Below, one piece after another: positions 2,723 through 42,235 of a DNA stretch of 64,000 nucleotides (position 1 is its first letter; every line of letters starts with the position of its first letter). The translations under genes were made by a program, and so were the position numbers. Below the pieces are notes generated by a model. That model was not told where the DNA came from. It saw nothing but the letters and a program-made list of their open reading frames with translations, and searched no databases. The DNA is taken from the NCBI RefSeq assembly GCF_003023845.1, contig NZ_PYFT01000001.1, positions 6,448,001-6,512,000 of the forward strand. The letters are read 5' to 3'. This DNA is from Adhaeribacter arboris (GTDB lineage Bacteria > Bacteroidota > Bacteroidia > Cytophagales > Hymenobacteraceae).

Positions 2723-3430
2723 ATGTTAAAGCAACTTTTTCAAAAAAATCTGGGCACATTAATCGCCATGGCTTTACTTGCTGTGGGGCCCGTGTTAATT
2801 AGCTCTACCGTAGCCGTACTGCTCTACCAATACCAGGCTATTTTACAGCAATTAACTCTGGGGCAGATGGTGCTGTATTTTATGGTGGTATCGTTTACCA
2901 TGGCTTTTGCCTTAACTCCTACCACCTTTGTAGCCCTAGTAACGGGTTTTTATTTAGGTTGGCATGGTTTCCCGGGAGTAGTTATTTCGTACGGGGTAGC
3001 TTCCTTAATCGGGTACGGCCTAGCCCAGGTTATCGACCACGGCAAACTTCTCCGATTTATCAGTCATTTCGAAAAAGCGGCCGCTGTGATGGAAGAATTA
3101 AAGCACCAAAGCTGGAGCTTAATTATTTTAACCCGTATTTCTCCGGTTCTGCCTTTTGCCTTGATGACATTTGTATTGGCGATGATGAAAGTAGAAAAGC
3201 GTAAATTCTTTCTGGCTAGTATTGTGGGTATGCTGCCGCGAACTTTATTCTTTTTTTGGTTAGGCACCCAAGCTCAGGATATCATTGCCTTACTACAGAA
3301 CCCCAATACCGGTAAAAGCGGTCAGATTCTAATAATTACGTTGATTTTGGTTTCTTTATTGGGTTTATATGTTCTATTTAACCGAGCACTTAAAAAAGCG
3401 CTTACCAAAAGGGTAGCCGGAAAAATTTAA
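2723..3430 (+). CDS. TVP38/TMEM64 (DedA-like) family membrane protein
   Basis: Predicted inner-membrane protein of the TVP38/TMEM64/VTT-domain group, related to DedA proteins thought to move or flip phospholipid-type lipids. With the start at 2723 (MLKQLFQKNLG) it has 235 residues. There are hydrophobic segments near the N-terminus, at residues about 45-95, and in the C-terminal third. The family-typical region is FALTPTTFVALVTGFYLGW, followed by a loop containing SWSLIILTRISPVLPFALM, where the R/P-rich reentrant loop is expected. The longer in-frame start at 2696 is translated intergenic repeat and is unlikely. Transcribed away from the cystathionine gamma-synthase-like gene. The precise substrate is unknown. 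Confidence 0.85.
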   Translation: MLKQLFQKNLGTLIAMALLAVGPVLISSTVAVLLYQYQAILQQLTLGQMVLYFMVVSFTMAFALTPTTFVALVTGFYLGWHGFPGVVISYGVASLIGYGLAQVIDHGKLLRFISHFEKAAAVMEELKHQSWSLIILTRISPVLPFALMTFVLAMMKVEKRKFFLASIVGMLPRTLFFFWLGTQAQDIIALLQNPNTGKSGQILIITLILVSLLGLYVLFNRALKKALTKRVAGKI

Positions 3431-3449
3431 TAAAAATATGGCAGATAGC

Positions 3450-3481
3450 TTGCGTTTGAACAGACGGTTTATGTATCTTTG
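3450..3481 (+). promoter_or_regulatory. Bacteroidota-type promoter of tRNA-Arg
   Basis: TTG at 3450-3452 and TATCTTTG at 3474-3481 match the Bacteroidota -33/-7 elements (TTG, TAnnTTTG) with a 21-base spacer. The tRNA starts 20 bases downstream of the -7 box. This is inference from the consensus. Confidence 0.6.
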
Positions 3482-3501
3482 CCCACTCAAAACGAGAAAA
3501 T

Positions 3502-3574
3502 GGTCACGTAGCTCAACTGGATAGAGCATCTGACTACGAATCAGAAGGTTTGGGGTTCGACTCCCTACGCGACC
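3502..3574 (+). tRNA. tRNA-Arg (anticodon ACG)
   Basis: A full cloverleaf can be folded. Acceptor stem starts GGTCACG; D arm has GCTC...GAGC; the anticodon arm TCTGA-CTACGAA-TCAGA gives anticodon ACG; the T arm has the TTCGACT loop and discriminator A. The acceptor stem has one A-C mismatch (fifth pair). The gene is intact but its last 11 bases are part of the 14-bp duplicated core of the integrated element, so the 3' end may be supplied by that element. Confidence 0.95.
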
Positions 3575-3577
3575 ACT
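3564..3577 (+). repeat. attL core: 14-bp direct repeat at tRNA-Arg 3' end
   Basis: CCTACGCGACCACT at 3564-3577 recurs exactly at 42222-42235, beside a tyrosine integrase gene. Identical copies of a tRNA 3' end bounding an integrase gene are the classic footprint of site-specific integration. Confidence 0.85.
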
Positions 3578-3578
3578 G

Positions 3579-3612
3579 AAAAGCCCTTAGAAATTTTTCT
3601 AAGGGCTTTTTC
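3579..3612 (+). terminator. tRNA-Arg terminator at left junction
   Basis: The inverted repeat AAAGCCCTTAGAAA/CTAAGGGCTTT is followed by T residues directly after the tRNA. A similar but not identical hairpin follows attR at 42237-42270. The right one is probably the original chromosomal terminator and this one came with the element. Confidence 0.8.
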
Positions 3613-3620
3613 ATTTTACC

Positions 3621-3640
3621 GGGTGCAGTAATGGGTGCAG
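3621..3640 (+). repeat. Paired GGGTGCAG motifs, left end of element
   Basis: GGGTGCAG at 3621-3628 and 3633-3640, 4 bases apart. The same motif pair occurs near the right end at 42085-42105. Candidate arm-type binding sites for the integrase. Confidence 0.55.
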
Positions 3641-4054
3641 ATCTATACTTTAATTTTATATAAATACCCATACTTTCTTAAAAACGAAATGGCCGTAATT
3701 ATTTTCGTATTAAACGAAAGGTGATACTTTCTTTTAAACTTCAACCTCAATACTGCTAGTTGCCGAAACTAGTGCAAACTAGATTGAATAATTAGCATTC
3801 CTTCTTTTATTTAATATTTCTCTTCTTTTATAAGCTATTCGACAATACTAATAGATTCTAATAATATTAAATAATAAATATTTCAATAGTATTTTATTAC
3901 TTTGCTAAATAGTCAATAATTGTCACCTACTAAATGCTATTAAGTTTAATTTGCATATTTTACAATGATTTGATATTGCTGTTTTGCACTTAACTTTCAA
4001 TATATATACATAAGTATATATTATTATATAATTATTTACGTTTATAATTTATAA
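3641..4054. other. AT-rich gene-free stretch
   Basis: About 410 bp of very AT-rich sequence between the left junction and the methyltransferase gene. It must hold that gene's promoter, but the AT-richness makes any single box call unreliable. No RNA gene or repeat family recognised. Confidence 0.5.
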
Positions 4055-6388
4055 ATGAAGGACTTAAGAAATATCTTAACCTGGAAGCAAGATTTTGGAC
4101 TTCTCCCAATTCATCTTTACCCGAATCAAATTGAAAACAATTGCTTCATTATGCTTAATGGAGGGTATGGAGATTTTTGCCTTAAAACAGAAGGATCAGA
4201 CAATAGCTCAATTGATTTTAATTCATTATCCTGGTCTAGCAATACTAAAAATTTTATTGTAATAGGAGATGAAAACGTAAATATTTATAACTGGCAAACT
4301 GACAATCCAGAAATCATAGCAAAAAATAGGGTAGAAAAGAATTTTGAAAAATTTTACAAATATTTAGTTGACAAAAGTTTTAAGTCAAGTAAAGATGTTG
4401 TGCCTTTTGTGATAGATATATTTAAGCAATTTAGGAATTTAACCCAAGAGAAGAATAATGCTGTAGAAGCATTAAATCTATTATTTATTCTTTTAACAAG
4501 TCTTAAAGAGGATATTTCCAACTTTGATTTTAGTAGTTGGGGGTTATCAGAAGTTGAAATTCCATCAAATTTTGATTTATATACCGAAAGATTGAAAAAT
4601 GGGATTTCAGGTATCAAACCAGAATTAGATTTAATTATAAGGCATTCAGCTGGAGCTCTTTTTCAAGAAGCACAAAAAGAAGTACTATTTTTTGATAGGC
4701 AAATTGATTTATGGGGTACATTTTCAAGTAAAATGACTTCTAAATATGTACTTTACTCAAGTATTCATTACACTCCACCTTATTTATCCCGAACTATAGT
4801 TGAAAATGCATTAAAGCAAATAGATTTAAGTCAATCATTCCTCAAAATATTTGATCCCGCTTGTGGCTCTTCTGAATTTTTGATAGAAGCTTTAAAGCAA
4901 CTGCATGAGAAAAGGTACTTGGGCAATGTTATAATTATTGGTTGGGATGTATCTCAAACTGCTATAGATACTTCAAATTTTTTACTGAGTTATGAGAAAA
5001 GAACCGTTTGGAAAGAAAAATTAAATTTTGAAATCAAGCTTGTCACAGATTCTTTGAAAGAAGAATGGAGCAATGATTACGATTTACTTTTAATGAATCC
5101 TCCTTTTGTCTCTTGGGAACAAATGGATAAAGATTCTAGAGAAGCAGTTAGAGGCATTTTTAAAACTAAATTAGAAGGTAGGCCCAACCAAGCAAGTGCA
5201 TTTTTTTATAAATCAGTACAATCTTTAAATAGTGTGGGCGTAATTGGATGTGTTATCCCATCATCCTTACTGACTTTAGATGCATATCAAAATTTAAGGA
5301 ATGAAGTATCTGATCAATTAGAAATTACATTAATTGGGAAATTAGGTAATTTTGTTTTTGAAGACGCTTTAACTGATGTAAGTTTCATCATAGGACACAA
5401 ACCTAAGACCAACATTATTCCCCTTATTTTATGGACAAGAAATGAAAAGGGAATTCCTCAGAATGCCTTACGTGATCTAAGAAAAATGAGTTATTCTGAA
5501 GAATTTAAAATAGTTGAAAAAGATTATAGCGTATACACTCCGTTATCATTTCCCATAACAAAAGAAAACTGGAAGCCGATTTCATTTCAGGAAAATGAAT
5601 TATTTAAAAGAATTGAAAGGTTTGTAATTGAGCAACAGCTAGTAAGAGTCCAAGAGATTTTCAATGTCCAACAAGGAATAAGAACAGGTAATAATGCAGC
5701 TTTTAAAATTTCAGAAGCCGAGTACAATAACCTTCCAAATCTAGAACAAGCATTTTTTAGACCAGCTATAGATAATGATTCAATTAAACGTGGGCAGATC
5801 CAAAGTGTAAATTATGTATGGTATCCATATAATGAAGAAGGGATTATAATTGATAGTGAAGAAGATTTAATTAATAAGGTGCCTATCTTTTATGAAAAAA
5901 TGCTTAGAGATTTTAAAATTAGTTTAACTAATCGAGCTCGGAAAGATGAATCTACATGGTGGCACTTAAGTGAACACAGGGCATGGTTACGTAAGAAACA
6001 ACCGAGATTGGTTTCAACAGAATTTGGGAAATCTGATTCCTTCGCTTTTGATAAAGATGGACACTTTGCTATTGAAAGAGGCAATGCTTGGCTTCCAAAA
6101 AAAGATTTTAAACAACTTGATACATATTACTTTTATCTTGCTTTTTTTTCAAGTCCCTTTTTTGATAAGTTATTATCAATATATTCTAAACAACTTTTAT
6201 CAGGCTGGGATTTAGGGAAAAAGTATACAAAAGAAATACCCATTCCTAATGCTCATTCGAAAGAAATCAGGTATTCCCAAGCCTATGAACAACTGGTTGA
6301 TATAGGGAAAGAACTTTCAGAAGGAGAGTACTATTTAAGGGCGACAACTGATAGTATATTACTCAAGTATATATATCCTGAAATATAG
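4055..6388 (+). CDS. N6-adenine DNA methyltransferase-like protein (Eco57I/type IIG-like)
   Basis: The 777-residue product carries SAM-binding motif I (FDPACGSSEF, from about residue 267) and catalytic motif IV (LLLMNPPF, about residue 345), the signature of N6-adenine DNA methyltransferases. The YTPPYL motif typical of the group comes just before motif I. The C-terminal 350 residues resemble a target-recognition domain. The N-terminal 230 residues are unrecognised and I see no clear PD-(D/E)xK nuclease motif there, so I cannot say it cuts DNA. The next gene starts 10 bp downstream on the same strand, so the two are probably one operon. Both are much more AT-rich than the rest of the window, suggesting recent import. 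A defence role is inference. Confidence 0.8.
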   Translation: MKDLRNILTWKQDFGLLPIHLYPNQIENNCFIMLNGGYGDFCLKTEGSDNSSIDFNSLSWSSNTKNFIVIGDENVNIYNWQTDNPEIIAKNRVEKNFEKFYKYLVDKSFKSSKDVVPFVIDIFKQFRNLTQEKNNAVEALNLLFILLTSLKEDISNFDFSSWGLSEVEIPSNFDLYTERLKNGISGIKPELDLIIRHSAGALFQEAQKEVLFFDRQIDLWGTFSSKMTSKYVLYSSIHYTPPYLSRTIVENALKQIDLSQSFLKIFDPACGSSEFLIEALKQLHEKRYLGNVIIIGWDVSQTAIDTSNFLLSYEKRTVWKEKLNFEIKLVTDSLKEEWSNDYDLLLMNPPFVSWEQMDKDSREAVRGIFKTKLEGRPNQASAFFYKSVQSLNSVGVIGCVIPSSLLTLDAYQNLRNEVSDQLEITLIGKLGNFVFEDALTDVSFIIGHKPKTNIIPLILWTRNEKGIPQNALRDLRKMSYSEEFKIVEKDYSVYTPLSFPITKENWKPISFQENELFKRIERFVIEQQLVRVQEIFNVQQGIRTGNNAAFKISEAEYNNLPNLEQAFFRPAIDNDSIKRGQIQSVNYVWYPYNEEGIIIDSEEDLINKVPIFYEKMLRDFKISLTNRARKDESTWWHLSEHRAWLRKKQPRLVSTEFGKSDSFAFDKDGHFAIERGNAWLPKKDFKQLDTYYFYLAFFSSPFFDKLLSIYSKQLLSGWDLGKKYTKEIPIPNAHSKEIRYSQAYEQLVDIGKELSEGEYYLRATTDSILLKYIYPEI

Positions 6389-6397
6389 ATTTAATCT

Positions 6398-7021
6398 ATG
6401 ATTAACCCTAAAAAAGTTATAGAGGAAATTGCTAAATCATGCAGGCACTATTTTCTAGAATCTACATTTTATTTTCACCACAATAATTATTTTAGATATT
6501 ATATTACTGGTAATAGGATTTCAAAAGCTATAAATAACTACAATGGTGTACAAGAACAGATTGATGTTATTAAATGGTTTGGAGATTTTTGGCTCTATAT
6601 ACATATTAGATTTGAAAAACCTTTTAAAGAATATAATACATTTATCACAATTTCTGTCTTCCAAGGAGAAGAAAATGATGATTACAAAGTTCAGCTATTT
6701 AGAGCAGAATGGGATAATTACGAAAACGAAGAGAATCATCCACAGCCACACTGGCATATTTTATCAAACCAGAGACTTGAAAGGTCATTTGATGAACTTA
6801 TTGATTTATTTGATCTTGACAAAGAGGACAGTTTTGGAGCTGAAATAAAGGAAGAAAAGTTAAAGGGTATTGATATAAAAAAAATTCATTTTTCAATGAA
6901 TGGACATTGGGCTACAAATGGTAGTCATGTTCATAGAATTAATGATGAAGCAACAATTGTAAACTGGTTCAAAGGCTTATTAGGTCATATTAAACTACAG
7001 TTAGAATATGCGATAAGATAA
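6398..7021 (+). CDS. Hypothetical protein, partner of the methyltransferase-like gene
   Basis: A 207-residue protein of a family I do not recognise. It starts 10 bp after the methyltransferase-like gene and shares its strongly AT-rich composition, so co-transcription is likely. Visible features: no signal peptide or membrane segment, a stretch HPQPHWHI near residue 120, HWATNGSHVHR near residue 170, and many aromatic residues. Clustered histidines might bind metal, but that is speculation. Possible roles include nuclease, inhibitor or specificity partner of the methyltransferase-like protein. No function is assigned. Confidence 0.75.
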   Translation: MINPKKVIEEIAKSCRHYFLESTFYFHHNNYFRYYITGNRISKAINNYNGVQEQIDVIKWFGDFWLYIHIRFEKPFKEYNTFITISVFQGEENDDYKVQLFRAEWDNYENEENHPQPHWHILSNQRLERSFDELIDLFDLDKEDSFGAEIKEEKLKGIDIKKIHFSMNGHWATNGSHVHRINDEATIVNWFKGLLGHIKLQLEYAIR

Positions 7022-7167
7022 ATATATATAAAGCTTTTCTGTTCAGATGCTAAATACAGCCAAGTTCATTGTTTAATTTTTCCCTTTTACAAGTTGTTCT
7101 AGGTTATATTTAATACTATGTTGATAATTGTTTATGCTTTATTTAAAAGAAATATACCTGTTACTTT

Positions 7168-7205
7168 CCTTCAGAAATGGTCAGTTCCTTCAGAAATGGT
7201 CAGTT
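7168..7205. repeat. 19-bp perfect tandem duplication at the resolvase 3' end
   Basis: Two exact 19-base units (7168-7186 and 7187-7205) cover the last codons and stop of the resolvase gene. The second copy extends the C-terminus slightly. Probably a local slippage or recombination scar. Confidence 0.8.
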
Positions 7206-7752
7206 GCAGATAGCGATAGCAGGTCGCTCGGGAAATACCCAAGATTCTGGCAATTTCTTCGACCCGCTTACCTGATGCCACAAGCACTGTTGCTGATTTA
7301 GCTTTTTCCATCGCTTCATGCGTTAAACCAGCGGATCTCCCCCCTTTCCGGCCGCGTGCCCTAGCAGCCACTAAGCCAGCTTTGGTTCTTTCCTTAATAA
7401 TCTCCCGCTCAAACTCCGCTAGGGAAGCAAAGATGTTAAAGGTAAATCGACCGGTGGAAGTAGCCGTATTAATCCCATCCTGTAAACTCACAAAGTCTAT
7501 TCCCCTTTTTTGAAACTCGGCGACCAGGTCAATCAAGTCCCGCAAGGATCTACCTAGCCGATCCAGCTTCCATACTACCACGGTATCTCCGGACCGGAGT
7601 TGACTCAGCAGTTTCTCCAGTTCCGGCCGTTCTTTGTTTTTACCGGATTTCTTTTCCTGGAAGACCAGCTCACATCCTTGGTTGGTGAGAGCATCTAATT
7701 GCAATTCTAATTTTTGGTCCTGGGTGCTCACCCGAGCGTAACCGATTTTCAT
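7171..7752 (-). CDS. Serine recombinase, resolvase/invertase family
   Basis: The 193-residue protein begins with YARVSTQDQ, containing the catalytic serine of small serine recombinases. It continues with the family motifs KLDRLGRSLRDL and FASLAEFEREIIKERTKAGL. The C-terminus has a helix-turn-helix (VEEIARILGISRATCYRY). Size fits Tn3-type resolvases and invertases. The upstream spacer carries a 12-bp inverted repeat that may be part of its recombination site. It lies divergent to, and 106 bp from, the left end of an IS1182-like element, but nothing shows that it belongs to that IS. A decayed relative lies at 55185-55603, outside the integrated element. Confidence 0.92.
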   Translation of the reverse strand: MKIGYARVSTQDQKLELQLDALTNQGCELVFQEKKSGKNKERPELEKLLSQLRSGDTVVVWKLDRLGRSLRDLIDLVAEFQKRGIDFVSLQDGINTATSTGRFTFNIFASLAEFEREIIKERTKAGLVAARARGRKGGRSAGLTHEAMEKAKSATVLVASGKRVEEIARILGISRATCYRYLQLTISEGTDHF

Positions 7753-7767
7753 CTTTGTCTCACGAAT

Positions 7768-7823
7768 ACCATCTCAAATATACAAAATTCTTTTTGATTG
7801 GTGAGATGGTCATTTGAGATGGT
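7768..7823. promoter_or_regulatory. Inverted repeat upstream of resolvase, candidate res/operator site
   Basis: ACCATCTCAAAT (7768-7779) and its exact complement ATTTGAGATGGT (7812-7823) are separated by 32 bases. An extra direct copy of GAGATGGT lies in between. Paired sub-sites beside a serine recombinase gene are typical of resolvase crossover or regulatory sites; this is inference from position and symmetry. Confidence 0.5.
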
Positions 7824-7857
7824 TTTTAGCGGAAAAAAGCGTCTTTTCAGAGGCTCT

Positions 7858-9571
7858 GAACTCGTCTCGTGAAACGGTCGTGGCTGTTGCACAACTACCT
7901 GATTAATGGTAGCCGTTAAAGAAGGTTACCAATTAATCTTTGATGTTATGCAAGGCAAGAAGGTATTTGCCGAGGAGAAGGTGCTGCTCTTCTCCCTCTC
8001 GGCGCACGTGCCGGAACACAACTTTTACCGACGGTTGAAACAAGAGGTGGATCTGGATTTTCTCTACGAACTTACCCAGCCCTATTACGGGCGTTGTGGC
8101 CAACAGTCGATTGACCCGGTAGTTTTCTTTAAGCTCTGCTTAGTGGGTTACCTGGAGAATATTGTCTCGGACCGCCAGCTTATCGAACATTGCAGCCTGC
8201 GACTGGACCTGCTTTACTTTCTGGACTATCAGTTAGACGAGCCCTGGCACTCCCCGGTGAGTCGTACCCGTCAGCTCTATCCCGAGGCCCTGTTTGAATC
8301 GTTGTTTGATCAAGTTTTTCGCTTGTGTGTCGAGAAAGGCATGGTAGTCGGTCGTAGGCAGGCCATCGACTCGGCACCGGTCAAGGCTAATGCTTCCATG
8401 GACAGCCTGCTTCTAAAGCAACCGGCTGGGTCTGTGAAAATGTATGTGAATCAGATAACTATAGAGAATAGTTCAGCCGCCGAAGAGTCAAATAGAAATA
8501 AAAACAGCAAACCAGAGCAATTTATTTCTGCTCCCGAGCATCAATTAAGAAAGCTGGAAAAGCACCAAGATAATCTAAAAGAATCTCCTAAAGGTTTGGG
8601 AGGCAATCACGAGAAGGCCCGGCTGGTAAGTAATAAAACTCACTATGGTCCTACTGATGGGGATGCCCGTATATCGATCAAACCAGGTAAGGCTAAAAAA
8701 CTCAATTATCATTGCAGTCTGGCGGTAGATACAGCCAAAGGCGTCATCAGCCATGTGCAGGCCGACTTGGCGGATGGTAGAGATAGCCAGTATCTGCCCG
8801 CTATTACCTTGAAATTGCAGCGGCGGTTACTAGACAATGAGCTGCTTCTACAGGAGTTGTTGGCCGATAGTGGGTATTCTAATGGAAGCAACTACTCCTT
8901 TTTAGAGCAAAGAAAGATAATCGGCTGGATACCCGTGTTTGGCCAGTACAAACCGGAAATTGAAGGCTTCCCTTACAATCAACAGCAGGACCAGTTCACC
9001 TGTCCGGCCGGTAAAATACTCTCCTTTAAAACCTTTGACACCAATGCGGAGGGAGGATTACTAAAAATCTACCGGGCTACCTACCAGGACTGCAAACAGT
9101 GTCCTTTGAAATCCTCTTGTGTTCCTAAAAGCCCATGCCGACAAATTACCCGCACCGCTTACGACCCAGAGTATCGGCGGGCGCTAGAAAGGCAGCAAAG
9201 CAGAAAGGGGAAGCGAATGAAGCGGCTTCGGCAAAGCACCGTGGAGCCCGTCTTCGGCAGCTTAATTCATTATTATGGGCTACGGCAAATAGGGGTGCGG
9301 GGCAAAGCCGGGGCGCACAAGGTGATGTTACTGGCCGCTACTGCCTTCAACCTGAAAAAATACATGAAGTTCAAGCCAGTGAAAGTAGTAAGCCAAGCCC
9401 TTGCACTGGTTAAAGAGCAGCAAAATGTCTTTGCTCGCTATTTTATCGCTTTTACTACCCTCTTTACAACCAGGAAAGTACTCCCGGGGTGGCAATAAGT
9501 TCAGACCGTGAAATCAGTCAGGCTTAAAACAAAGTTGTGCAACAGCCACGACCGTTTTTTGAGACGAGTTC
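7858..9571 (+). mobile_element. IS1182-family insertion sequence, apparently complete
   Basis: About 1.7 kb with nearly perfect 38-bp terminal inverted repeats (7858-7895 and 9534-9571, differing only in the three bases after CTC) around a single full-length transposase gene. I could not identify a convincing target-site duplication in the flanking bases. It sits inside the integrated element, between the AT-rich gene pair/resolvase and the TonB operon. Confidence 0.88.
7906..9498 (+). CDS. IS1182-family transposase
   Basis: DDE transposase of 530 residues. The N-terminal region matches the DUF772-type transposase domain (GRCGQQSIDPVVFFKLCLVGYLENIVSDRQL). RRQAIDSAPVKANAS contains the first catalytic aspartate. 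A central DDE_Tnp_1-type region follows (YHCSLAVDTAKGVISHVQ, LLADSGYSNG). The late cysteine cluster CPAGK...CKQCPLKSSC is typical of IS1182. Length is normal and the frame is open, so the element may be active. The 38-bp inverted repeats lie 11 bp upstream of the start and 36 bp downstream of the stop. Confidence 0.93.
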   Translation: MVAVKEGYQLIFDVMQGKKVFAEEKVLLFSLSAHVPEHNFYRRLKQEVDLDFLYELTQPYYGRCGQQSIDPVVFFKLCLVGYLENIVSDRQLIEHCSLRLDLLYFLDYQLDEPWHSPVSRTRQLYPEALFESLFDQVFRLCVEKGMVVGRRQAIDSAPVKANASMDSLLLKQPAGSVKMYVNQITIENSSAAEESNRNKNSKPEQFISAPEHQLRKLEKHQDNLKESPKGLGGNHEKARLVSNKTHYGPTDGDARISIKPGKAKKLNYHCSLAVDTAKGVISHVQADLADGRDSQYLPAITLKLQRRLLDNELLLQELLADSGYSNGSNYSFLEQRKIIGWIPVFGQYKPEIEGFPYNQQQDQFTCPAGKILSFKTFDTNAEGGLLKIYRATYQDCKQCPLKSSCVPKSPCRQITRTAYDPEYRRALERQQSRKGKRMKRLRQSTVEPVFGSLIHYYGLRQIGVRGKAGAHKVMLLAATAFNLKKYMKFKPVKVVSQALALVKEQQNVFARYFIAFTTLFTTRKVLPGWQ

Positions 9572-29180: not shown

Positions 29181-29654
29181 TTAGTTAGCAGTCCTTCTCC
29201 TTTTACTTCTTCTAACCTCGGCTCGAATGGCATTTCTGGTTTCCAGTACCCAGCATTCTAAGAGCGTGCTGCCGAGAAAAGTAGCCAGGCGCAGGGCTAA
29301 AAAGGCGTTTACCCAAACCAAGCCCTCGCTTATTTGCAGCACCAGATCAATTTTATTTTCGGGTAGACCGGTCCAAGGTAGGTTAGAGTTCAGGCAGAGT
29401 ACCTGGTAGGTTTTGGGGTAAGCCAGGTGCGCGGCAATGACTTCTTGGATTTGGGGAGTCCGTAAGAAAAGCGCCGGATCCTGTCCGAATAGACGCGCCA
29501 TGGCGGTGGCATTGTAGAGCAGGTAATTAGAAGAGAAATCAATCTCTAAGCAATGCCGGTGGAGGGAGTAAATACGGCGAGTAAGGGGAGGAAAAGACGC
29601 AGTTTTCTCCGCGTTAATCCCGGCCGGAACCTTGGTTTGTTTATTAATTTGCAT
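29181..29654 (-). CDS. KilA-N-domain-like protein
   Basis: I place the start at 29654 (MQINKQTK, just after AAATGTATGC), giving 157 residues. The longer frame to 29714 runs through a hairpin. The body follows the KilA-N pattern: LLYNATAMARLFGQDPALFLRTPQIQEVI near residue 40, then a WVNAFLALRLATFLGSTLLECWV region near the end that matches the usual GGTW-HP-LALEFA-WLSPEF-W core in diverged form. KilA-N domains are DNA-binding modules of phage antirepressors and related proteins. One of four such genes in a row in this element. More diverged than its neighbour at 29728-30264. Confidence 0.7.
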   Translation of the reverse strand: MQINKQTKVPAGINAEKTASFPPLTRRIYSLHRHCLEIDFSSNYLLYNATAMARLFGQDPALFLRTPQIQEVIAAHLAYPKTYQVLCLNSNLPWTGLPENKIDLVLQISEGLVWVNAFLALRLATFLGSTLLECWVLETRNAIRAEVRRSKRRRTAN

Positions 29655-29697
29655 ACATTTGAACTGTAAAATGGTTTGACATGAATTTGTTGAACTG

Positions 29698-29725
29698 GCC
29701 CGATGTTCCCGCATCGGGCTTTTTT
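29698..29725 (+). terminator. Hairpin with T run on the plus strand
   Basis: GCCCGATG/CATCGGGC with a 6-base loop followed by six T on the plus strand. No plus-strand gene ends here; it sits between two minus-strand KilA-N genes. Possibly it ends an antisense transcript or is a leftover of a lost gene. Confidence 0.5.
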
Positions 29726-29727
29726 AT

Positions 29728-30264
29728 TTATAAAGTATTTATTCTAAATAATTCCAATTGGTTTTTATGGCCTTTACTCCTTCGATAATTTGCTTGTCGC
29801 TCTTCCAATTCCAACCGTTCTAACTCTTGATATTCTGGACTACTTTGCAAAGACTTTCTAATTTCTTCTATTCGGTTCTTTCTTTGAGCACTTTCCTTTA
29901 AGCTCTCCTCTATTTGCCGATAACTTCCAAACAGGATTTCATCAATGGTAGAATACACCCACAGTTCAAACTCGGGATTTAACCAAGCCGCAAATTTTAG
30001 AGCTAAGATACGGTGCATCCAGGTACCTGATTTCTGTTTAGAAATGACCATATCTTCCTCTTTCGCGACCATTATATTAGGGGAATTCCCATATTTTAAA
30101 CAAATCTCAATAAAGGTTTTCGTCTGGTCTAGCCTTAGAAAGTCAGCGGGTAGTTTATGGAAAGCTTTAGCCATTTCCGTGGCATTTACCATAAGATTCT
30201 TGGTGGTCATGTCGAACGCTATCTCTTGACCATCATACCTGAAAATCTGAATTCCAAATTCCAT
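29728..30264 (-). CDS. KilA-N-domain protein
   Basis: The 178-residue product contains a complete KilA-N domain. It has FRYDGQEIAFDMTTKNLMVNATEMAKAFHKLPADFLRLDQT at the start, then SGTWMHRILALKFAAWLNPEFELWVYSTIDEILFG in the middle (the family core GxTWMHxxLALxFAxWLxPxFxxW). A charged coiled-coil tail (EESLKESAQRKNRIEEIRKSLQ) follows. KilA-N proteins are typically encoded by phages and phage-derived elements and act as DNA-binding antirepressors or anti-sense regulators. It lies between another KilA-N gene and a P22-type antirepressor gene on the same strand. Confidence 0.9.
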   Translation of the reverse strand: MEFGIQIFRYDGQEIAFDMTTKNLMVNATEMAKAFHKLPADFLRLDQTKTFIEICLKYGNSPNIMVAKEEDMVISKQKSGTWMHRILALKFAAWLNPEFELWVYSTIDEILFGSYRQIEESLKESAQRKNRIEEIRKSLQSSPEYQELERLELEERQANYRRSKGHKNQLELFRINTL

Positions 30265-30284
30265 TTTATGTTATTTGTATTTAT

Positions 30285-30809
30285 TCAGAATTGGCGATGA
30301 TTGGCCAGCCAGTACTCGAAAGTGGTGTCTTTGATAACATTGAGCCGAGTGGTAGCTTCTTTTAAGGTTTTCTGCGTGTTGCGAAAATCGGAGCGTACTT
30401 CCTGTTCTTTTTCCAACTGCAGCTCCAAGGCTTTTTGCTTTTGTTCCAGAAAATCGCTCTGATCGGAGAAGTGGCGGAAGAGCACTTCGTAGCACTGGGT
30501 CCGGTAGCGGCTTACGGCTTCTTGCGCTTCGGGCTTTACGTTCTTGGGGTTGATGGTAAACAGCCAGCCAAAGACATATTTGTAGGGAATACAGGTCATT
30601 TCATAGATCTTATTATCTGCTCCAGTTGAGGGGCTCAGCACCGCAACTGAGTTTAAAAATTCATCACTTTCTATCTTCTCCCGCTGACTTTTTGAGTCAA
30701 TTCCTAAAGCGTCGCAGATCGGGCGGATTGGTATTAATTTCTCTCCATTCTCAATTATTAAAATGGGAATATTATTAACTGTAGCGATTGTTGTGGTTTG
30801 TGTTTTCAT
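30285..30809 (-). CDS. Phage antirepressor (P22 Ant N-terminal-like), intact copy
   Basis: A 174-residue protein with the P22_AR_N-type antirepressor N-terminal domain. It has IPILIIENGEKLIPIRPICDALGIDSKSQREKIESDEF near the start and YEMTCIPYKYVFGWLFTINPKNVKPEAQEAVSRYRTQCYEVLF in the middle, the conserved core. The C-terminus is coiled-coil (LEQKQKALELQLEKEQEV). Antirepressors of this family bind and inactivate phage repressors. The minus-strand transcription unit begins in the divergent region 30810-30947. Two decaying copies of the same gene follow at 31080-31358 and 31469-31620. Confidence 0.88.
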   Translation of the reverse strand: MKTQTTTIATVNNIPILIIENGEKLIPIRPICDALGIDSKSQREKIESDEFLNSVAVLSPSTGADNKIYEMTCIPYKYVFGWLFTINPKNVKPEAQEAVSRYRTQCYEVLFRHFSDQSDFLEQKQKALELQLEKEQEVRSDFRNTQKTLKEATTRLNVIKDTTFEYWLANHRQF

Positions 30810-30947
30810 GAAGTATATACATTATTTACATCATTTGTTTATTAAAATGTTTATGCAACAAATGTTATAAATGTTTACAACAAAAACAACACTTACAGTA
30901 AAAATTATTTTTACATTTGTTACATACATTAATGTACACACAAAACT
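30810..30947. promoter_or_regulatory. Divergent promoter/operator region with repeated AAATGTTTA motifs
   Basis: 138 bp separating the antirepressor (minus) from the small 55-residue gene (plus). It contains repeated elements: AAATGTTTATGCAACA and AAATGTTTACAACA about 24 bp apart, plus ACAAATGTT and ACATTTGTTACATACATT. Direct repeats of this kind between divergent genes are typical binding sites for a regulator. Confidence 0.5.
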
Positions 30948-31115
30948 ATGGCAGCAGTAACCCTAAGAAAACTCCCGGACGACTTGCATCTAAAAATCAG
31001 AAGGTTGCAATTAGATTTAGAGCTCGAGGGAAAAAAGATTAATCTTGAAGACTTGTATATAATGCTTATCGAAAAAGGATTAGTAGTTTACCAAAAAGAA
31101 AACCCCAGCAAATAG
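30948..31115 (+). CDS. 55-residue ribbon-helix-helix-like small protein
   Basis: Starts at ATG 30948 and reads MAAVTLRKLPDDLHLKIRRL, then 25 further residues, ending VVYQKENPSK. The pattern VTLRKLPDDLHLKIR followed by two short helices is what one expects of Arc/ParD-type ribbon-helix-helix DNA-binding proteins. It is divergent from the intact antirepressor and its stop codon sits in a GGGG-type hairpin. A decayed duplicate of its C-terminal half lies at 31354-31443. It could be a small repressor of the antirepressor promoter or an antitoxin; this is inference. Confidence 0.7.
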   Translation: MAAVTLRKLPDDLHLKIRRLQLDLELEGKKINLEDLYIMLIEKGLVVYQKENPSK

Positions 31116-31358
31116 CCGGGGTTTAAATCTGCGAAAAAGCACTTCGCAATACGGGGAGTGGCAGCGGCTCACAGCTTCCTGCGTTTCAAGCTTTACATTC
31201 TTGGGGTTGATGGCAAACAGCCAGCTAACGACAAAGTTGTATGGAATACAGGTCATTTCATAGTTCTTATTATCTGCTCCAGTTGCCATGCTGAGCATTG
31301 TAACTGCAGTGCTGAGCACCGCAGTTGATTTTAAGATTTCATCCTTTAAGATATTCAC
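31080..31358 (-). pseudogene. Truncated second copy of the P22-type antirepressor
   Basis: Reads MNILKDEILKST and then TGADNKNYEMTCIPYNFVVSWLFAINPKNVKLETQEAVSRC, clearly a copy of residues about 48-110 of the intact antirepressor. It has lost the N-terminal domain and the coiled-coil C-terminus and ends in an unrelated tail. It overlaps the 3' end of the 55-residue plus-strand gene. An open frame remains, but it is best read as decaying. Confidence 0.75.
31100..31124 (+). terminator. Hairpin at the 3' end of the 55-residue gene
   Basis: AAACCCC (31100-31106) pairs with GGGGTTT (31118-31124) around the stop codon of the small plus-strand gene. A degraded version of the same hairpin occurs about 328 bp downstream, after the decayed gene copy. 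Confidence 0.55.
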
Positions 31359-31443
31359 ACCTCATGAATCTTTGCTAATTGTGAGAGATTTGATTTATAA
31401 GGCTTTAGGTATAGAGCCGGAAAAAGAAAATCCCAGCAAATAG
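31354..31443 (+). pseudogene. Decayed copy of the 55-residue gene
   Basis: The plus strand reads HESLLIVRDLIYKALGIEPE and ends KENPSK then TAG at 31441-31443, matching the C-terminal half and stop region of the intact small protein. The N-terminal half and promoter are missing. Confidence 0.65.
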
Positions 31444-31468
31444 CCGGGGATAAATCTATAATAAAGAC

Positions 31469-31620
31469 GGAAAAGCACTTCATAACACTAGAAGCGATAG
31501 CAGCTCATAGCTTCCTGCACTTAAGACTTTACATTCTTGGGATTAATGCCAAACAGCCAGCTAAAGACATATTTTATTGGAAGATACGTTATTTAATAGT
31601 TCTTTCCATCCATTCCAGTT
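31469..31620 (-). pseudogene. Third, heavily decayed antirepressor copy
   Basis: The minus strand, read through stops, gives IKYVFSWLFGINPKNVKS, then VQEAMSCYRF and CYEVLF, with in-frame stops before and between these pieces. It aligns to the same core region as the two copies to its left. It is non-functional and marks a tandem amplification of the antirepressor unit. Confidence 0.7.
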
Positions 31621-31656
31621 GCGGGCTTCAGGCCCGTAACTTTCCATTTTTTTCTT

Positions 31657-32364
31657 TTAAGCATTTAGCTGCATTCTTTTTTCAATTTCCTGATTCTGGA
31701 CTTCTCTTACCTGTACCTCTAAGTGGCGAGAAGGTATTTTTCTGGATTTAGAAATGTAAGCTCGGTTGTTGAGCAGGAGCCGGAGCATGTCCGCCTCCCT
31801 TTCCGGAATCTGGTTGATAGCGGCTTTTTCCAAATCATTGTTGACCGTGTCTCTGCCCGGGCTCTTACCGTACTTTTCTTGGTGAACCTGAGCCAAGGCT
31901 ACTTTATATTTCTGGAGGTTACTTCTTTCCTGAACCAGGTTTCTTTGGGATTGCTCGATTAACTGCTCCAGCAATAATTCCTGCTGGTTCAACTGCCCAT
32001 TATTTCTCTGATTTGGAAAGAAAAAGCGGCGCTGCTGCCGCCACCACAAAAGAAAAGCCTGTTTCTTCTGGCGCTGCTGCTGGGTTCTGTCTTGGTCGGG
32101 TACGCCGTGGATCCAGGGCTCTACTTCTTCGGCCGGCAAACACAACATTTTTCGCTGGTCGCCCTCCCCAGTACGCGCCCTGGTGGTTTTAAGTAGGCTC
32201 GAAAAAAAAGGACTTTCTTGCAGGGTCTTTGCTTGCCATCTATACTCGAGTTCCAGCAGCTCACATATTACTTTCACCGGGATTAAGTTCTGATGGTCTA
32301 AAGTGATAATGCCGATAATCTTATCCTCAAATTCTAACTTTTCGATTGGTGCTTGTTCTCTCAT
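31657..32364 (-). CDS. Diverged phage antirepressor-like protein
   Basis: A 235-residue protein. Its N-terminal region (IGIITLDHQNLIPVKVICELLELEYRWQAKTLQESPFF) aligns in pattern with the P22-type antirepressor at 30285-30809. The core that follows (KMLCLPAEEVEPWIHGV) corresponds to the MTCIPYKYVFGWLF segment. Then comes a charged helical tail. Probably a paralogue that diverged before the recent tandem copies. No signal peptide; acts presumably on a repressor, which cannot be verified. Confidence 0.65.
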   Translation of the reverse strand: MREQAPIEKLEFEDKIIGIITLDHQNLIPVKVICELLELEYRWQAKTLQESPFFSSLLKTTRARTGEGDQRKMLCLPAEEVEPWIHGVPDQDRTQQQRQKKQAFLLWWRQQRRFFFPNQRNNGQLNQQELLLEQLIEQSQRNLVQERSNLQKYKVALAQVHQEKYGKSPGRDTVNNDLEKAAINQIPEREADMLRLLLNNRAYISKSRKIPSRHLEVQVREVQNQEIEKRMQLNA

Positions 32365-32905: not shown

Positions 32906-33547
32906 TTACTTTCCAGTCGCAGGAGCTAAAGCTTTCTTCACCTTCTGTACGGTGACGGTAGACACCTCACTCAGCTTAGCTACTTGGCGGATGCTGTAGT
33001 TACTCTTGAGTAGCTTAACTACCTGTGGGTATTCTTGCAGCACCTGGCCGGCGTTCTTGGTGGTACCCGTCGGCCGGCCAATGTTCTTGCCCAGAGAACG
33101 GGCTTGCTGCTGACCCGAGCGGATGCGGTCCGCTAAGCCTTCGGCTTCCACCCGGGCCAGCTCGGCAAACACTAGAAAAATCAGGGAAGCGGCTGGATTA
33201 CGCTTGCCATTGGGCAAGAGCGTTTCCAGGCCAAAGTTCTGGGAGTAGATGGATACGTTTAATTCGGTAAGCTGCTCAATCAACTCCAGGGTTTCGGCCG
33301 GCCTTCTCCCCAGGCGGGAAACTTCCGTCACGAGCAGCTTGGTGATCTTACCCAAGCGGGCTAGCTGCAGGAGCTGCTCCAGCTCCGGCCTCTGCAACCG
33401 CTTACGCCGGGTAGCGCTACCGACTTCCTGGATCACCTCCACCACCTGGTAATTATTTCTTTTGGCGTAGGCTTGCAGGTCGTTGATTTGGCGCTGATTA
33501 TCCTGCCGGCGCGTAGAAACCCGCACGAAGATGGCCACGGGGAGCAA
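32906..33547 (-). CDS. Serine recombinase (resolvase family) with extended C-terminus
   Basis: A 213-residue protein starting MLPVAIFVRVSTRRQDNQRQ, with the catalytic serine in FVRVST and the downstream motif RRPELEQLL-type region (LQRPELEQLLQLARLGKITKLLVTEVSRLGRRP). LIFLVFAELARVEAEGLADR follows, and a C-terminal HTH-like region (YSIRQVAKLSEVSTVTVQKVKKAL). Distinct from the resolvase at 7171-7752. It sits in the mobile core, upstream of the antirepressor array. Possible role: dimer resolution of the replicating element or inversion; not determined. Confidence 0.9.
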   Translation of the reverse strand: MLPVAIFVRVSTRRQDNQRQINDLQAYAKRNNYQVVEVIQEVGSATRRKRLQRPELEQLLQLARLGKITKLLVTEVSRLGRRPAETLELIEQLTELNVSIYSQNFGLETLLPNGKRNPAASLIFLVFAELARVEAEGLADRIRSGQQQARSLGKNIGRPTGTTKNAGQVLQEYPQVVKLLKSNYSIRQVAKLSEVSTVTVQKVKKALAPATGK

Positions 33548-35066: not shown

Positions 35067-38000
35067 CTAAAAATATTGCTTAAATCGTACCATGGTACCC
35101 GATTTATCCGAAAAGTCATATTGCCGGCCAGGTGCCATTTGGGCATTTTGATTAATGGCTTCCATAAACTTGTCTTTAGCCATCTTCGGACTTTTATTAT
35201 AATTAAAGTCGGCTAGCAACTCCTCGGTGCTCAGCCATTGATCAAGTGGCTGCGCTTGCACGAACTCCGTTATCAACTCCGGTGCATTGCCATTTAGTTT
35301 GATGAGCCGGGAAAGCTTCGCACTCGGATCATCTTCCGAGGTTAATTGCTGCAGATTGGCTTTGGTTTGGAATTCGATGCCTTGCCGGCGCAGCAGATCG
35401 TAGTTGAGCACGATGGCGCTGGTAGTGTTGGCCAGCTCCGGAAAATGCACGCCTCTTTCTCGGGCTTCCAAAAAGGACCGGTGCTTTTCCAAATAAACCC
35501 GGATGGTACTGATGCCTAAAGGCGTAATGTTTTGCGTTCGGGCCGTGGCTAGGTAAAAGTTATGAACCGCTTTGGTACGCAAGAAAAGTTTGGTCACCCC
35601 ATCGGCCTCCCTTTGTATTTTATAATGTTCTCCCTCCCGCACTTCCCGGATAGATTGTAATACAAATAAATACTGTTCCACATCATCCGAAACGGTTTGT
35701 ATTTCAACTTGCAATTTTACCCGGGAAATGAGTTCCTGTTGGATATCTTCGTAGGTAAACGGAAACTTTACCTGGCCCTGCTCGGATAAGATTTGATAAG
35801 TAGTCAGCAGGGTGCTGATGTTTAAAACGGCCCGGTCATCCGGGGGGAACTCGAGCACTTCCCGGCACTTCGCTCGAATCTGCTGGCTCACCGATGGTTC
35901 CACCTGACGATAGTGTTTCATGTAGCTGCGGTATTGGAGCATCTGGCAGGTGACACTAGTGGTATAACCGTCTTTCTCCAGTTGTTTTAACTCCTGGTAA
36001 GCCTCCCCGCTAGTCTGCTTGGATTGCTCATTGAACTCCGATATAATGGTCCGGGATAATAAAGCCGGATCCTTGGTGGGTAGATCCTGACCACAGAGCA
36101 AGGCGGCGGATTGCGGTTTATAGTTCTTGGTTTCGTTGCCCCCAGTGGCCCGGCCGGTCATCTTGCCGCTCCCGTCGGCAATGCCTTTCAGCATGCCGAT
36201 CAGATGATCGGAAGCCGTATTCTTGTACTCGTTCAGCCAAATCAAGCCGTTGCGCACCGAGGCCAGGTAGCGCCGGATCCCCGTGGCGGTGCTGCCCCCT
36301 TCCAGGTTCACCCCATCTTCGGGGTATTCGCCGAACATAGCGGCTAAAGATTCGGCGCCCTTACTCTTACCGGCTCCCCGAGGACCAAAGTGGTCTAGCA
36401 AGGGAAAGTAGTTACTGTTTTCTTTAAAGATGATGTCCCGGTACAAGGCCGCCAGAAAAAAGCACACCATGACTTTCCCGTTGTTACCGTAAGCTTCTAC
36501 CAGGAGCCTTGACCAACGCTCGAAAGTAAGGCCTGGTTTCTCAAAGTGCCGGAACATTCGTTCCAGTTCGTAAGTATCATCTTCCTCCGGGTTTAACTTA
36601 AGCGTAGTTGAAAAAGGCAGGTAATAGTACGAGAGCTGGTACACCCTACCAGCCGGTAAATACTCCTGTAATTTTTCCACCTTAAATTGAGCAAGGAATT
36701 CATTGTAGGTCCGGAAGAAAAACAATTGGCCATTAACTTCCACTTGACTATCGGAGCTTAATTGGGATAGTTCTTCCAACGTTTTAACTGGTATTTTTAA
36801 GGGTACGATGCCGTACTTATCAGACTTGATGAAATGACCGTTGTAGAACAAGCCGTTGGCCCAGGTGTAAAAATCTCCATGGGAGTTATAACCCATATAG
36901 CGCGGCTGCACCGCTTCAATCACCCCGTCAAAGAGCTTCATTTTGATCTTATTCAGGTGGGTTTCCGTCCCGTCAAAGATAAAGGCGCCGAGTTTACCAA
37001 TGGCCCGCTTGAAAGTGCCCACGCCCGTAAAATCATCGGTGGATACGGCCGTGGTGCGGACCTTGCCAAACATATTGCGGAAGATACACACGTACTTAGG
37101 CTCATTTTCCGAAAGCACAAAGTAGAGGATCTCGATAGTAAAGTTACAGATCATTACTTCCTGCTTTTTCTCGTAGGTATAATAGCAGCCGTCTTTTTCG
37201 TAGTAGCCAAAATCAAAATAAGCCGCCCGCGTGGTCGATTCCAGCTTGGCCAGTTCCTGCGTATCGGTGTCGGACTTTCGCTTTTGCAGCTTGTAGTTCT
37301 TTTTGAAATCTGGCCAGCGCTCACAAACTTCATCAAAATAGGTGTTCCGGAGGATGTCTTTCTCGATGAGCTCCAATACTTCGCCCATCCGCGTGATTTG
37401 TTCTGCTTTCTCGTGCGGGGATAAGCAGCCTTGCGCTTGGCATTCTTCCAGCAAGTAGCCGGAAATGTATTCCTTGGTTTCCCTAAGCCACTTCCCTATT
37501 TTCTCGGGGGTTATTAATTTTCTAATCTGCTCATCCGGATCCCGTTCTTTCCCGGGCAAAAGGACCCGCACGATAAAGCCTTGTTCGATTAGCAGCTGCG
37601 CATTCTTGTGCAAGGCTTTTAAGCCAGCCATATCGTGATCCGGTACCATCACCACCGTATCTGTGTATTTTTTTAAAAGCTGACACTGGTTTAAGGTGAA
37701 GGCGGTGCCACAGGGAGCGACAGTATTCCGGAGATCCGCCTGATAAAAGCTCAGCACGTCCACGTTGCCTTCCACTAGGTAAGCGAATTGTTTTTCCTGG
37801 ATCGCTTTGGTGGCTAGGTGGAGCCCGTACAGGTGATCGCCCTTGGTCCAGACACTATCCGGCGAATTCAAGTACTTGGGTGGTTTATAGGTAGCATCCG
37901 GTGCTGGCTCAGTCACTAGCCGACCTGTGAAGGCTACTAACTGGCCGCGGTAATTATGGATGGGAAAAAGAATACGATCCTGAAAGTAATCGTAAGCAAC

Positions 38001-38588
38001 TGTTGTATTTTCCAGGTTTACTTCCCGGGCAAGCCCGGCCGGTATAAGTTGATCCGGAGGGTAGCCGGCGGCAATAGCATCTTGGTAAAATTGATTTTTC
38101 CCGGCCAAGGCGTAAGCAACTTTAAAGTCCAATAAAGTCGTTTCTTGTAAGCGTCTTTGTTTCATCCAGGTCGGAGGAATATCGTGGGCCTGGTAGTAAG
38201 CTAAGGCGTACTCGAGTAATAATTGGCGGGATTTACGTTCTTGGTAGGCTTGCTGGGCTTCTTGCTGCTGTTCTGCCGAAAAATCTTCGTACTCTAGGGA
38301 AATACCATTTTTTTGCGCTATTTCCTGCACCGCCTCATAAAAGCCAAGATTTTCTTTTTTCTGCACGAAAGCAATGCCGTCACCGACGGCACCACAACCG
38401 AAACATTTAAAGATTTGCTTTGAAGCATTGACTGAAAAGGAAGGGGTCTTTTCGGCGTGAAAAGGGCAGCAGGCTTGGTGCCGGGTTCCTTTGGTTTTGA
38501 GGGGTAAGTAAGCCCCCACCACCGAAACAATATCTACTTGTTTTACTTTTTGAATACTATCATTACTGATCCGTTTATTGTAACTCAT
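35067..38588 (-). CDS. Primase-helicase fusion (CHC2 zinc finger, Toprim, SF3-type/phage ATPase)
   Basis: A 1173-residue replication protein. The N-terminus is a CHC2 zinc finger (C41-x2-H44 and C62-x2-C65). A Toprim-type primase core follows (YLVEGNVDVLSFY near residue 270 and VVMVPDHDMAGLKAL). The C-terminal half carries an ATPase: Walker A GPRGAGKSK near residue 735 and Walker B-like LIWLNEYKN near residue 780. This combination of DnaG-like primase and a phage/plasmid helicase-type ATPase is typical of replication proteins of phages, satellites and integrative elements. It starts the minus-strand operon and its 3' end adjoins the iteron array, so it probably initiates replication there. 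Confidence 0.9.
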   Translation of the reverse strand: MSYNKRISNDSIQKVKQVDIVSVVGAYLPLKTKGTRHQACCPFHAEKTPSFSVNASKQIFKCFGCGAVGDGIAFVQKKENLGFYEAVQEIAQKNGISLEYEDFSAEQQQEAQQAYQERKSRQLLLEYALAYYQAHDIPPTWMKQRRLQETTLLDFKVAYALAGKNQFYQDAIAAGYPPDQLIPAGLAREVNLENTTVAYDYFQDRILFPIHNYRGQLVAFTGRLVTEPAPDATYKPPKYLNSPDSVWTKGDHLYGLHLATKAIQEKQFAYLVEGNVDVLSFYQADLRNTVAPCGTAFTLNQCQLLKKYTDTVVMVPDHDMAGLKALHKNAQLLIEQGFIVRVLLPGKERDPDEQIRKLITPEKIGKWLRETKEYISGYLLEECQAQGCLSPHEKAEQITRMGEVLELIEKDILRNTYFDEVCERWPDFKKNYKLQKRKSDTDTQELAKLESTTRAAYFDFGYYEKDGCYYTYEKKQEVMICNFTIEILYFVLSENEPKYVCIFRNMFGKVRTTAVSTDDFTGVGTFKRAIGKLGAFIFDGTETHLNKIKMKLFDGVIEAVQPRYMGYNSHGDFYTWANGLFYNGHFIKSDKYGIVPLKIPVKTLEELSQLSSDSQVEVNGQLFFFRTYNEFLAQFKVEKLQEYLPAGRVYQLSYYYLPFSTTLKLNPEEDDTYELERMFRHFEKPGLTFERWSRLLVEAYGNNGKVMVCFFLAALYRDIIFKENSNYFPLLDHFGPRGAGKSKGAESLAAMFGEYPEDGVNLEGGSTATGIRRYLASVRNGLIWLNEYKNTASDHLIGMLKGIADGSGKMTGRATGGNETKNYKPQSAALLCGQDLPTKDPALLSRTIISEFNEQSKQTSGEAYQELKQLEKDGYTTSVTCQMLQYRSYMKHYRQVEPSVSQQIRAKCREVLEFPPDDRAVLNISTLLTTYQILSEQGQVKFPFTYEDIQQELISRVKLQVEIQTVSDDVEQYLFVLQSIREVREGEHYKIQREADGVTKLFLRTKAVHNFYLATARTQNITPLGISTIRVYLEKHRSFLEARERGVHFPELANTTSAIVLNYDLLRRQGIEFQTKANLQQLTSEDDPSAKLSRLIKLNGNAPELITEFVQAQPLDQWLSTEELLADFNYNKSPKMAKDKFMEAINQNAQMAPGRQYDFSDKSGTMVRFKQYF

Positions 38589-42221: not shown

Positions 42222-42235
42222 CCTACGCGACCACT
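42222..42235 (+). repeat. attR core: 14-bp direct repeat of tRNA-Arg 3' end
   Basis: Exact copy of the attL core at 3564-3577, lying 142 bp after the integrase stop. Together the two copies define the element ends. Sequence to the right (from about 42236) is chromosomal. Confidence 0.85.

Follow-up and report, generated by a model that had tools for sequence, protein, structure and literature searches.

A mobile gene pair of an adenine methyltransferase and a protein of unassigned family in Adhaeribacter arboris, a candidate restriction-modification-like system

Introduction

Adenine methyltransferases exist as solitary enzymes, and in BREX, a system that needs several further genes, phage DNA is proposed to be blocked rather than cut. 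Restriction enzymes draw on a handful of catalytic folds and some fit none of them, so that type II enzymes outside every known family are an accepted class, and even HNH residues are rarely recognizable by eye (PMC4081073). One enzyme with a fold of its own is R.PabI, described as a restriction glycosylase that removes bases, with a HALFPIPE fold and the catalytic residues Y68, H211, and D214 (PMC10273834).

Here we describe a methyltransferase gene and a small gene directly behind it in Adhaeribacter arboris, and we compare this pair with these systems. The window, by which we mean the whole stretch of DNA that was analyzed, is 64,000 nucleotides long.

Results

An AT-rich gene pair at the end of an integrative element

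The pair and the element that carries it comprise the following features:

3502-3576, plus strand: tRNA-Arg gene (anticodon ACG), the integration site of the element (ARAGORN; Rfam tRNA, 64.1 bits)
3564-3577, plus strand: attL, the 14-bp CCTACGCGACCACT at the end of the tRNA-Arg gene, a direct repeat with 42222-42235
4055-6388, plus strand: ORF1, an intact 777-aa gamma-class N6-adenine DNA methyltransferase (MTase) with Pfam N6_Mtase and Eco57I matches above cut-off
6398-7021, plus strand: ORF2, the 207-aa partner of the MTase and proposed restriction effector, paired with it in 45 of 48 loci and modeled with AlphaFold2
40680-42080, plus strand: tyrosine integrase of the element, 466 aa (PF00589 at genome positions 6489628-6490032, window positions 41628-42032)
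42222-42235, plus strand: attR, the 14-bp repeat of the tRNA end, 141 bases past the integrase

ORF2 starts 9 bases past the ORF1 stop on the same strand, which agrees with an initial annotation of this DNA that had described an unrecognized 207-residue gene close behind a methyltransferase gene. That annotation had also called the two genes far more AT-rich than the rest and had placed them just inside attL, and both points hold. GC content is 30.6% in the pair versus 43.5% in the rest of the window, in which the lowest value for any other 2967-base stretch is 38.2%. The 14-bp repeat at the tRNA-Arg end, together with the integrase by attR, locates both ends of an integrative element of 38.7 kb (3564-42235), and the MTase gene and ORF2 are the first genes inside it, with a resolvase and a transposase coming after.

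The 22-base end of the tRNA occurs once in the whole genome, as it should if the two ends have only 14 bases in common. Since the same repeat comparison also gave two chance 13-base repeats, the case for the att sites rests on placement at the tRNA end and on the integrase, and not on length alone. A promoter scan returned 16 promoter-like sites versus 20.5 in shuffled sequences, a terminator scan returned none, and an Rfam search over 3400-7900 found the tRNA only.

Elsewhere in the element, several small ORFs on the minus strand (29181-32364) look by eye like KilA-N/BRO-type phage antirepressors, and near them lie a second serine recombinase-like ORF (32906-33547) and a large primase-like ORF (35067-38588). 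At 1333-2528 on the minus strand, a gene that by eye is cystathionine gamma-synthase-like is split over the overlapping frames 1333-1866 and 1860-2528, through either a frameshift or a sequencing error.

An intact adenine methyltransferase with a family-specific N-terminal region

ORF1 matched the Pfam families N6_Mtase (E 2e-12) and Eco57I (E 1.2e-9), both over cut-off, and in a search of PDB sequences residues 235-738, the catalytic and C-terminal part, could be aligned with BseCI (E 3.7e-13). When a profile of 42 family members was compared with the PDB, it matched site-specific adenine MTases of 577-578 aa (E 1.6e-36), which we take to be the solitary CamA of Clostridioides. Three parts of the protein matter for what follows:

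4055-4759, plus strand: N-terminal region, residues 1-235, family-specific and without a Pfam match above cut-off
4853-4867, plus strand: DPACG, residues 267-271, cofactor motif I; read in translation, columns conserved across the family
5096-5107, plus strand: NPPF, residues 348-351, catalytic motif IV; read in translation, columns conserved across the family

The initial annotation had described this gene as an MTase without a recognized nuclease, and we likewise found an intact MTase with no conserved known nuclease motif. A Pfam scan of 42 MTases returned no nuclease family, and an alignment of 44 MTases revealed no conserved nuclease site in the N-terminal region, where W10, L34, G36, W60, S61, W80, R127, R196, and H197 are invariant. 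We considered a PD-(D/E)XK-type nuclease in this region (D40 ... N/D63-x-K65) and rejected it because two members carried on plasmids (L062 and L063) have neither D40 nor K65. Across the 44 sequences, D40 is present in 38 and position 63 is N in 34, D in 6, and S in 4; K65 is replaced by P in both plasmid members.

ORF1 also has a weak similarity to BREX PglX models (PADLOC, E 8.9e-13; NCBIfam, E 1.1e-13 with a score of 50.1 against a cut-off of 500 bits). Searches with the MTase gave a single 42% match in phages, a halovirus type IIG enzyme, and two matches at 22-23% in viral contigs.

The two genes form a conserved pair

The two genes are a conserved pair, obligate across phyla. We collected 48 ORF2 loci by a scan of species genomes that required one of two peptide patterns, so this set holds fairly close members only. 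In 45 of these 48 loci ORF2 is immediately preceded by the MTase gene, encoded on the same strand. Of the other three, two lie at contig ends, with the record starting in or at ORF2 (L014 and L025), and the third (L051) is a deletion remnant that joins residues 1-45 of the MTase to residues 84-203 of ORF2. Four of the 45 paired loci have an incomplete MTase, two of them at contig ends (L022 and L041) and two with a frameshift (L015 and L049); the latter two are metagenome assemblies in which ORF2 is intact and the MTase frame is broken. Spacing between the two genes, by ORF calls, is -50 to +11 in 40 of the 41 loci with a full-length MTase, and the sole exception (L029) is a start-choice artifact.

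Evenly drawn samples gave the same picture from both sides. ORF2 was present in 2 of 395 genomes from the phylum and in 3 of 390 from the order, with its own genome counted in each. Two more weak matches in the 395-genome search (G331, E 2e-4; G255, E 9e-4) contain internal stops and overlap other frames, and we rejected them as chance. Searching with the MTase instead, at E<=1e-30 in the phylum sample and E<=1e-20 in the order sample, gave 2 of 395 and 4 of 390 genomes, and the full-length MTases recovered this way (2 of 395 and 3 of 390 genomes, own included, and two plasmids) are all trailed by ORF2 or a diverged form of it. The unpaired match in this search (G627) is a distant MTase that matches over residues 235-731 only. 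The samples overlap in part, in that loci L033, L039, and L040 are the contigs of the G587, G011, and G740 finds. By tblastn ORF2 itself was found in no phage and no plasmid, and viral contigs gave no match either.

No broadly shared third gene emerged from the flanks, where no ORF family beyond the MTase occurred in more than 3 of the 48 loci. The initial annotation had suggested a search for conserved pairs, and had named as evidence against a two-gene module an ORF2 relative standing alone or with unrelated partners, or a nuclease domain in the large protein; we observed no such relative and no nuclease motif in the large protein.

Diverged relatives in Alphaproteobacteria

The two plasmid members of the MTase family come from Sphingomonas sp. 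NY01 (28.1% identity) and Sinorhizobium mexicanum (26.8%), in both cases over 98-99%, and on each plasmid the end of the MTase gene is overlapped by the gene for a second protein, of 245-260 aa. When 408 proteins were searched with an ORF2-family profile, both of these partners were recovered (E 3.9e-7 and 2.7e-4), and hhalign joins the ORF2 family to them at E 3.2e-6 and probability 88. Residues kept in both branches include Q99, R102, E104, W105, P117, H118, W119, F146, H164, A166, W171, and W190; in the alphaproteobacterial branch H120 has become Q and D106 is lost.

On the Sphingomonas plasmid, a small protein (positions 5528-5974 of that record) overlaps the MTase start and has a weak MerR match (E 0.0028, under cut-off); it would fit a controller gene and may possibly be one. 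Another record (L066, 745-3969) holds a different MTase of 880 aa, which matches at E 1.2e-22 over residues 235-731 and differs at its N-terminus; 3 bases on comes the gene for a 192-aa protein whose PHLHI and HFALN stretches are reminiscent of ORF2. We rejected this locus as a third ORF2 branch and treat it as no more than a lead, given that the 192-aa protein is not among the profile matches listed (to E 2.4) and gave no alignment; it has no match in plasmids, viral contigs, or the 395 genomes.

The pair is mobile and the distances of its two members correlate

The pair is horizontally mobile. Its GC content is below that of its flanks in 37 of the 39 loci with enough flank, and by more than 5 points in 22. 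On the MTase tree (44 rows, with host orders assigned by hand from record titles and 13 rows unlabeled), host orders are mixed and need 14 changes where the minimum is 4, yet some order signal remains, with shuffled labels averaging 18.0 and never giving 14 or fewer in 200 trials, so not every spread is a transfer. In L039, L040, and L044, whose hosts are a Bacteroidetes metagenome bin, Algoriphagus, and Marinifilum, the MTases are nearly alike, which points to a recent move from one order to another. The records labeled archaeal and desulfobacterial are metagenome contigs of only 4402 and 5713 bases and may be misbinned.

MTase and ORF2 distances are correlated (r 0.83 over 42 pairs, a value uncorrected for shared descent), with 2000 label shuffles reaching at most 0.25. 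ORF2 diverges faster, at a mean identity of 39% versus 50% for the MTase. Restriction genes tend to diverge faster.

Several neighbors of the pair resemble known defense genes. Among selected near neighbors (141 of 142), PADLOC matches at E<=1e-10 included type IIG, AbiE, retron/reverse-transcriptase, DpdF, and bSEFIR models, as seen in the best 25 of 120 families. When 30 hand-picked neighbors were scanned singly, 23 did not match PADLOC defense models and 7, at 5 loci, did: DpdF (L014), a type IIG enzyme (L038), a retron effector (L045), a type IIG enzyme and bSEFIR (L052), and an MTase and a Fic protein (L058). Coming from a hand-picked set, these neighbors are a hint only.

The partner protein has few fixed residues and an alpha-beta model

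ORF2 belongs to a family of proteins of about 200-260 aa. It had no match in NCBIfam or PADLOC at E<=1, none in PHROGs at E<=0.1, no significant match among PDB sequences, and a single Pfam line at E 0.12, far below its cut-off. For ORF2 and its 47 relatives together, Pfam gave 10 families at E<=0.1, each in at most 2 of the 48 members, and HNH, PD-(D/E)XK, GIY-YIG, and other nuclease families were absent from these matches. A keyword search of the literature, limited in extent, returned nothing on the MTase-ORF2 pair, which may still be published.

The histidine clusters that the initial annotation had pointed out in ORF2 are real, but only two of these histidines, H118 and H164, are the same in all 48 rows of the alignment, with H114 and H120 conserved at 90% or above and H177 and H179 lower. 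The conserved stretches are as follows:

6692-6715, plus strand: QLFRAEWD, residues 99-106, in the final strand of the sheet; the alphaproteobacterial branch shares R102 and E104
6743-6757, plus strand: QPHWH, residues 116-120; P117, H118, and W119 kept in the alphaproteobacterial branch too
6887-6898, plus strand: HFSM, residues 164-167, reading HFAM in most members; H164 common to both branches

As to known patterns, no lysine occurs among the columns conserved at 90% or above, where a PD-(D/E)XK pattern was sought, and the fixed residues include no invariant tyrosine and no H-x-x-D. The fixed R102, E104, H118, and H164, along with the tryptophans, suggest an active site, and we propose that these four residues form it.

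The AlphaFold2 model (48 sequences; pLDDT 85.1, pTM 0.81) describes an alpha-beta fold in which a helix precedes a meander of seven antiparallel strands (residues 24-106) and another helix forms the C-terminus (184-206), while the histidine-rich part (111-180) is weaker, with block pLDDT of 61-77. In this model R102 and E104, two apart on the last strand, would lie on the same face, ahead of H118 and H164. Foldseek gave no significant match in the PDB (best E 0.086). VIA-align placed CapZ at the top, with Z 7.2 over 107 residues at 3.8 A, below the level at which the tool is trusted, and a DR_1245-like shape matched weakly (Z 6.2). The R.PabI family was not among the best 50 matches listed of either fold search, and the HNH beta-beta-alpha-metal site has no Pfam match in ORF2, whose histidine-rich region is modeled at moderate confidence only.

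Two structural candidates were rejected. CapZ, an actin capping protein, was discarded as kin on its scores (Z 8.0 with a 4-sequence model, Z 7.2 with the better model, Foldseek E 0.086), and the best match in a viral structure library had an E of 0.02 but a TM-score of 0.28.

Discussion

Proposed function and alternatives

The reading we consider most likely, and to which we give an about even chance, is that the locus is a mobile two-gene restriction-modification-like system with a restriction partner from an unassigned family. The methylation, DNA attack, restriction, and anti-phage action that we infer for the pair would proceed as follows. Judging from its family, the MTase would methylate adenine in a defined sequence and so mark self DNA. 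ORF2, made from the same operon, would be the restriction partner and would act on unmarked DNA, alone or bound to the MTase, which would supply target recognition. Its predicted active site would consist of R102, E104, H118, and H164, in a protein built from an alpha-beta meander and an appended histidine-rich region.

A modification gene with a restriction gene is favored by the pairing and by the fixed residues of ORF2; against this count the lack of a nuclease motif or fold match in ORF2 and the fact that most scanned neighbors (23 of 30) are not defense genes. Unless they stem from assembly errors, the two loci with a broken MTase and an intact ORF2 argue against a self-toxic nuclease that works on its own; an ORF2 dependent on the MTase for its action would fit them. 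More tentatively, ORF2 could be a restriction enzyme whose fold, and possibly chemistry, is new, with a meander sheet and an R-E-H-H center, perhaps recruited by the MTase to unmethylated sites and working without a PD-(D/E)XK, HNH, GIY-YIG, phospholipase-D, or HALFPIPE site. If so, it would add a further catalytic type among restriction enzymes, distributed across Bacteroidota with diverged cousins in Alphaproteobacteria.

It is also conceivable, although we think it rather doubtful, that defense depends on methylation and has no nuclease of its own, with ORF2 serving the MTase as a structural or accessory subunit, such as a DNA clamp or a stimulating or specificity partner, and with phage DNA blocked and not cut. 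Such a subunit would suit the missing nuclease signature in both ORF2 and the MTase N-terminal region, the weak match of the MTase to BREX PglX models, the weak CapZ-like and DR_1245-like shapes (Z 7.2 and 6.2; both CapZ and DR_1245 are non-enzymes), and the tolerance of an intact ORF2 beside a broken MTase in L015 and L049. However, a fixed R, E, and two H would seem to resemble a reaction center more than a binding surface, and a BREX-like arrangement is at odds with flanking ORFs in which no third gene recurs.

We regard as unlikely a role outside defense, in which an epigenetic MTase and a dedicated chaperone or regulator, ORF2, have been spread by mobile elements. The nearest PDB profile matches are indeed site-specific adenine MTases of 577-578 aa, and the shape of ORF2 is weakly chaperone-like, but the pair is mobile and patchy (2 of 395 genomes across the phylum), defense genes adjoin it in at least 5 of 48 loci among hand-picked neighbors, and a housekeeping epigenetic gene would be expected to follow host descent more closely than the MTase tree does. 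Similarly improbable is an ordinary type II system in which ORF2 has a known nuclease fold, most likely that of HNH, but has diverged too far to be recognized: HNH residues can seldom be made out by eye (PMC4081073), and residues 111-180 at pLDDT 61-77 leave room for a small unseen catalytic fold, yet no nuclease family appears in the Pfam matches of the 48 members at E<=0.1 and Foldseek found no significant PDB match (best E 0.086).

Whichever of these holds, the pair offers a clean test case, a small protein that accompanies a single MTase family in different phyla and offers few fixed residues to probe. If ORF2 attacks DNA, it would be a new kind of restriction enzyme, and if it does not, a mobile DNA methylase would have an obligate subunit that lacks an explanation.

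Comparison with known systems

The pair shares features with several described systems. Like type IIG enzymes, the MTase has an N-terminal region ahead of an Eco57I-type MTase; unlike them, it does not join nuclease and MTase in one chain as judged by the Pfam scan of 42 MTases and the N-terminal alignment, the only PD-(D/E)XK candidate (D40, K65) being lost in the alphaproteobacterial members. The likeness to BREX lies in the weak similarity of the MTase to PglX, whose models are about 1100-1400 residues long; the NCBIfam score of 50.1 stands against a cut-off of 500, and no BREX partner genes or further genes recur at the 48 loci. The R.PabI family (PMC10273834) resembles ORF2 in being a small restriction protein with its own fold, paired with an MTase and without the usual nuclease motifs, but differs in its catalytic residues, since ORF2 has no invariant tyrosine or H-x-x-D, and no sequence match was seen between the two.

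Closest are the type II systems with gamma-class adenine MTases (relatives of BseCI, TaqI, and Eco57I), which share the catalytic and C-terminal part of the MTase and a partner behind it, whereas the MTase here has a 235-residue N-terminal region that those enzymes do not show and ORF2 matches no known restriction-enzyme family. As in a type II system, the locus combines an MTase with intact motifs and a constant adjacent partner (45 of 48), although that partner is not recognizable as a restriction endonuclease in Pfam, NCBIfam, PADLOC, PDB sequence, or Foldseek searches. Given that unassigned type II enzymes exist, a partner of this kind is compatible with membership in the type II class.
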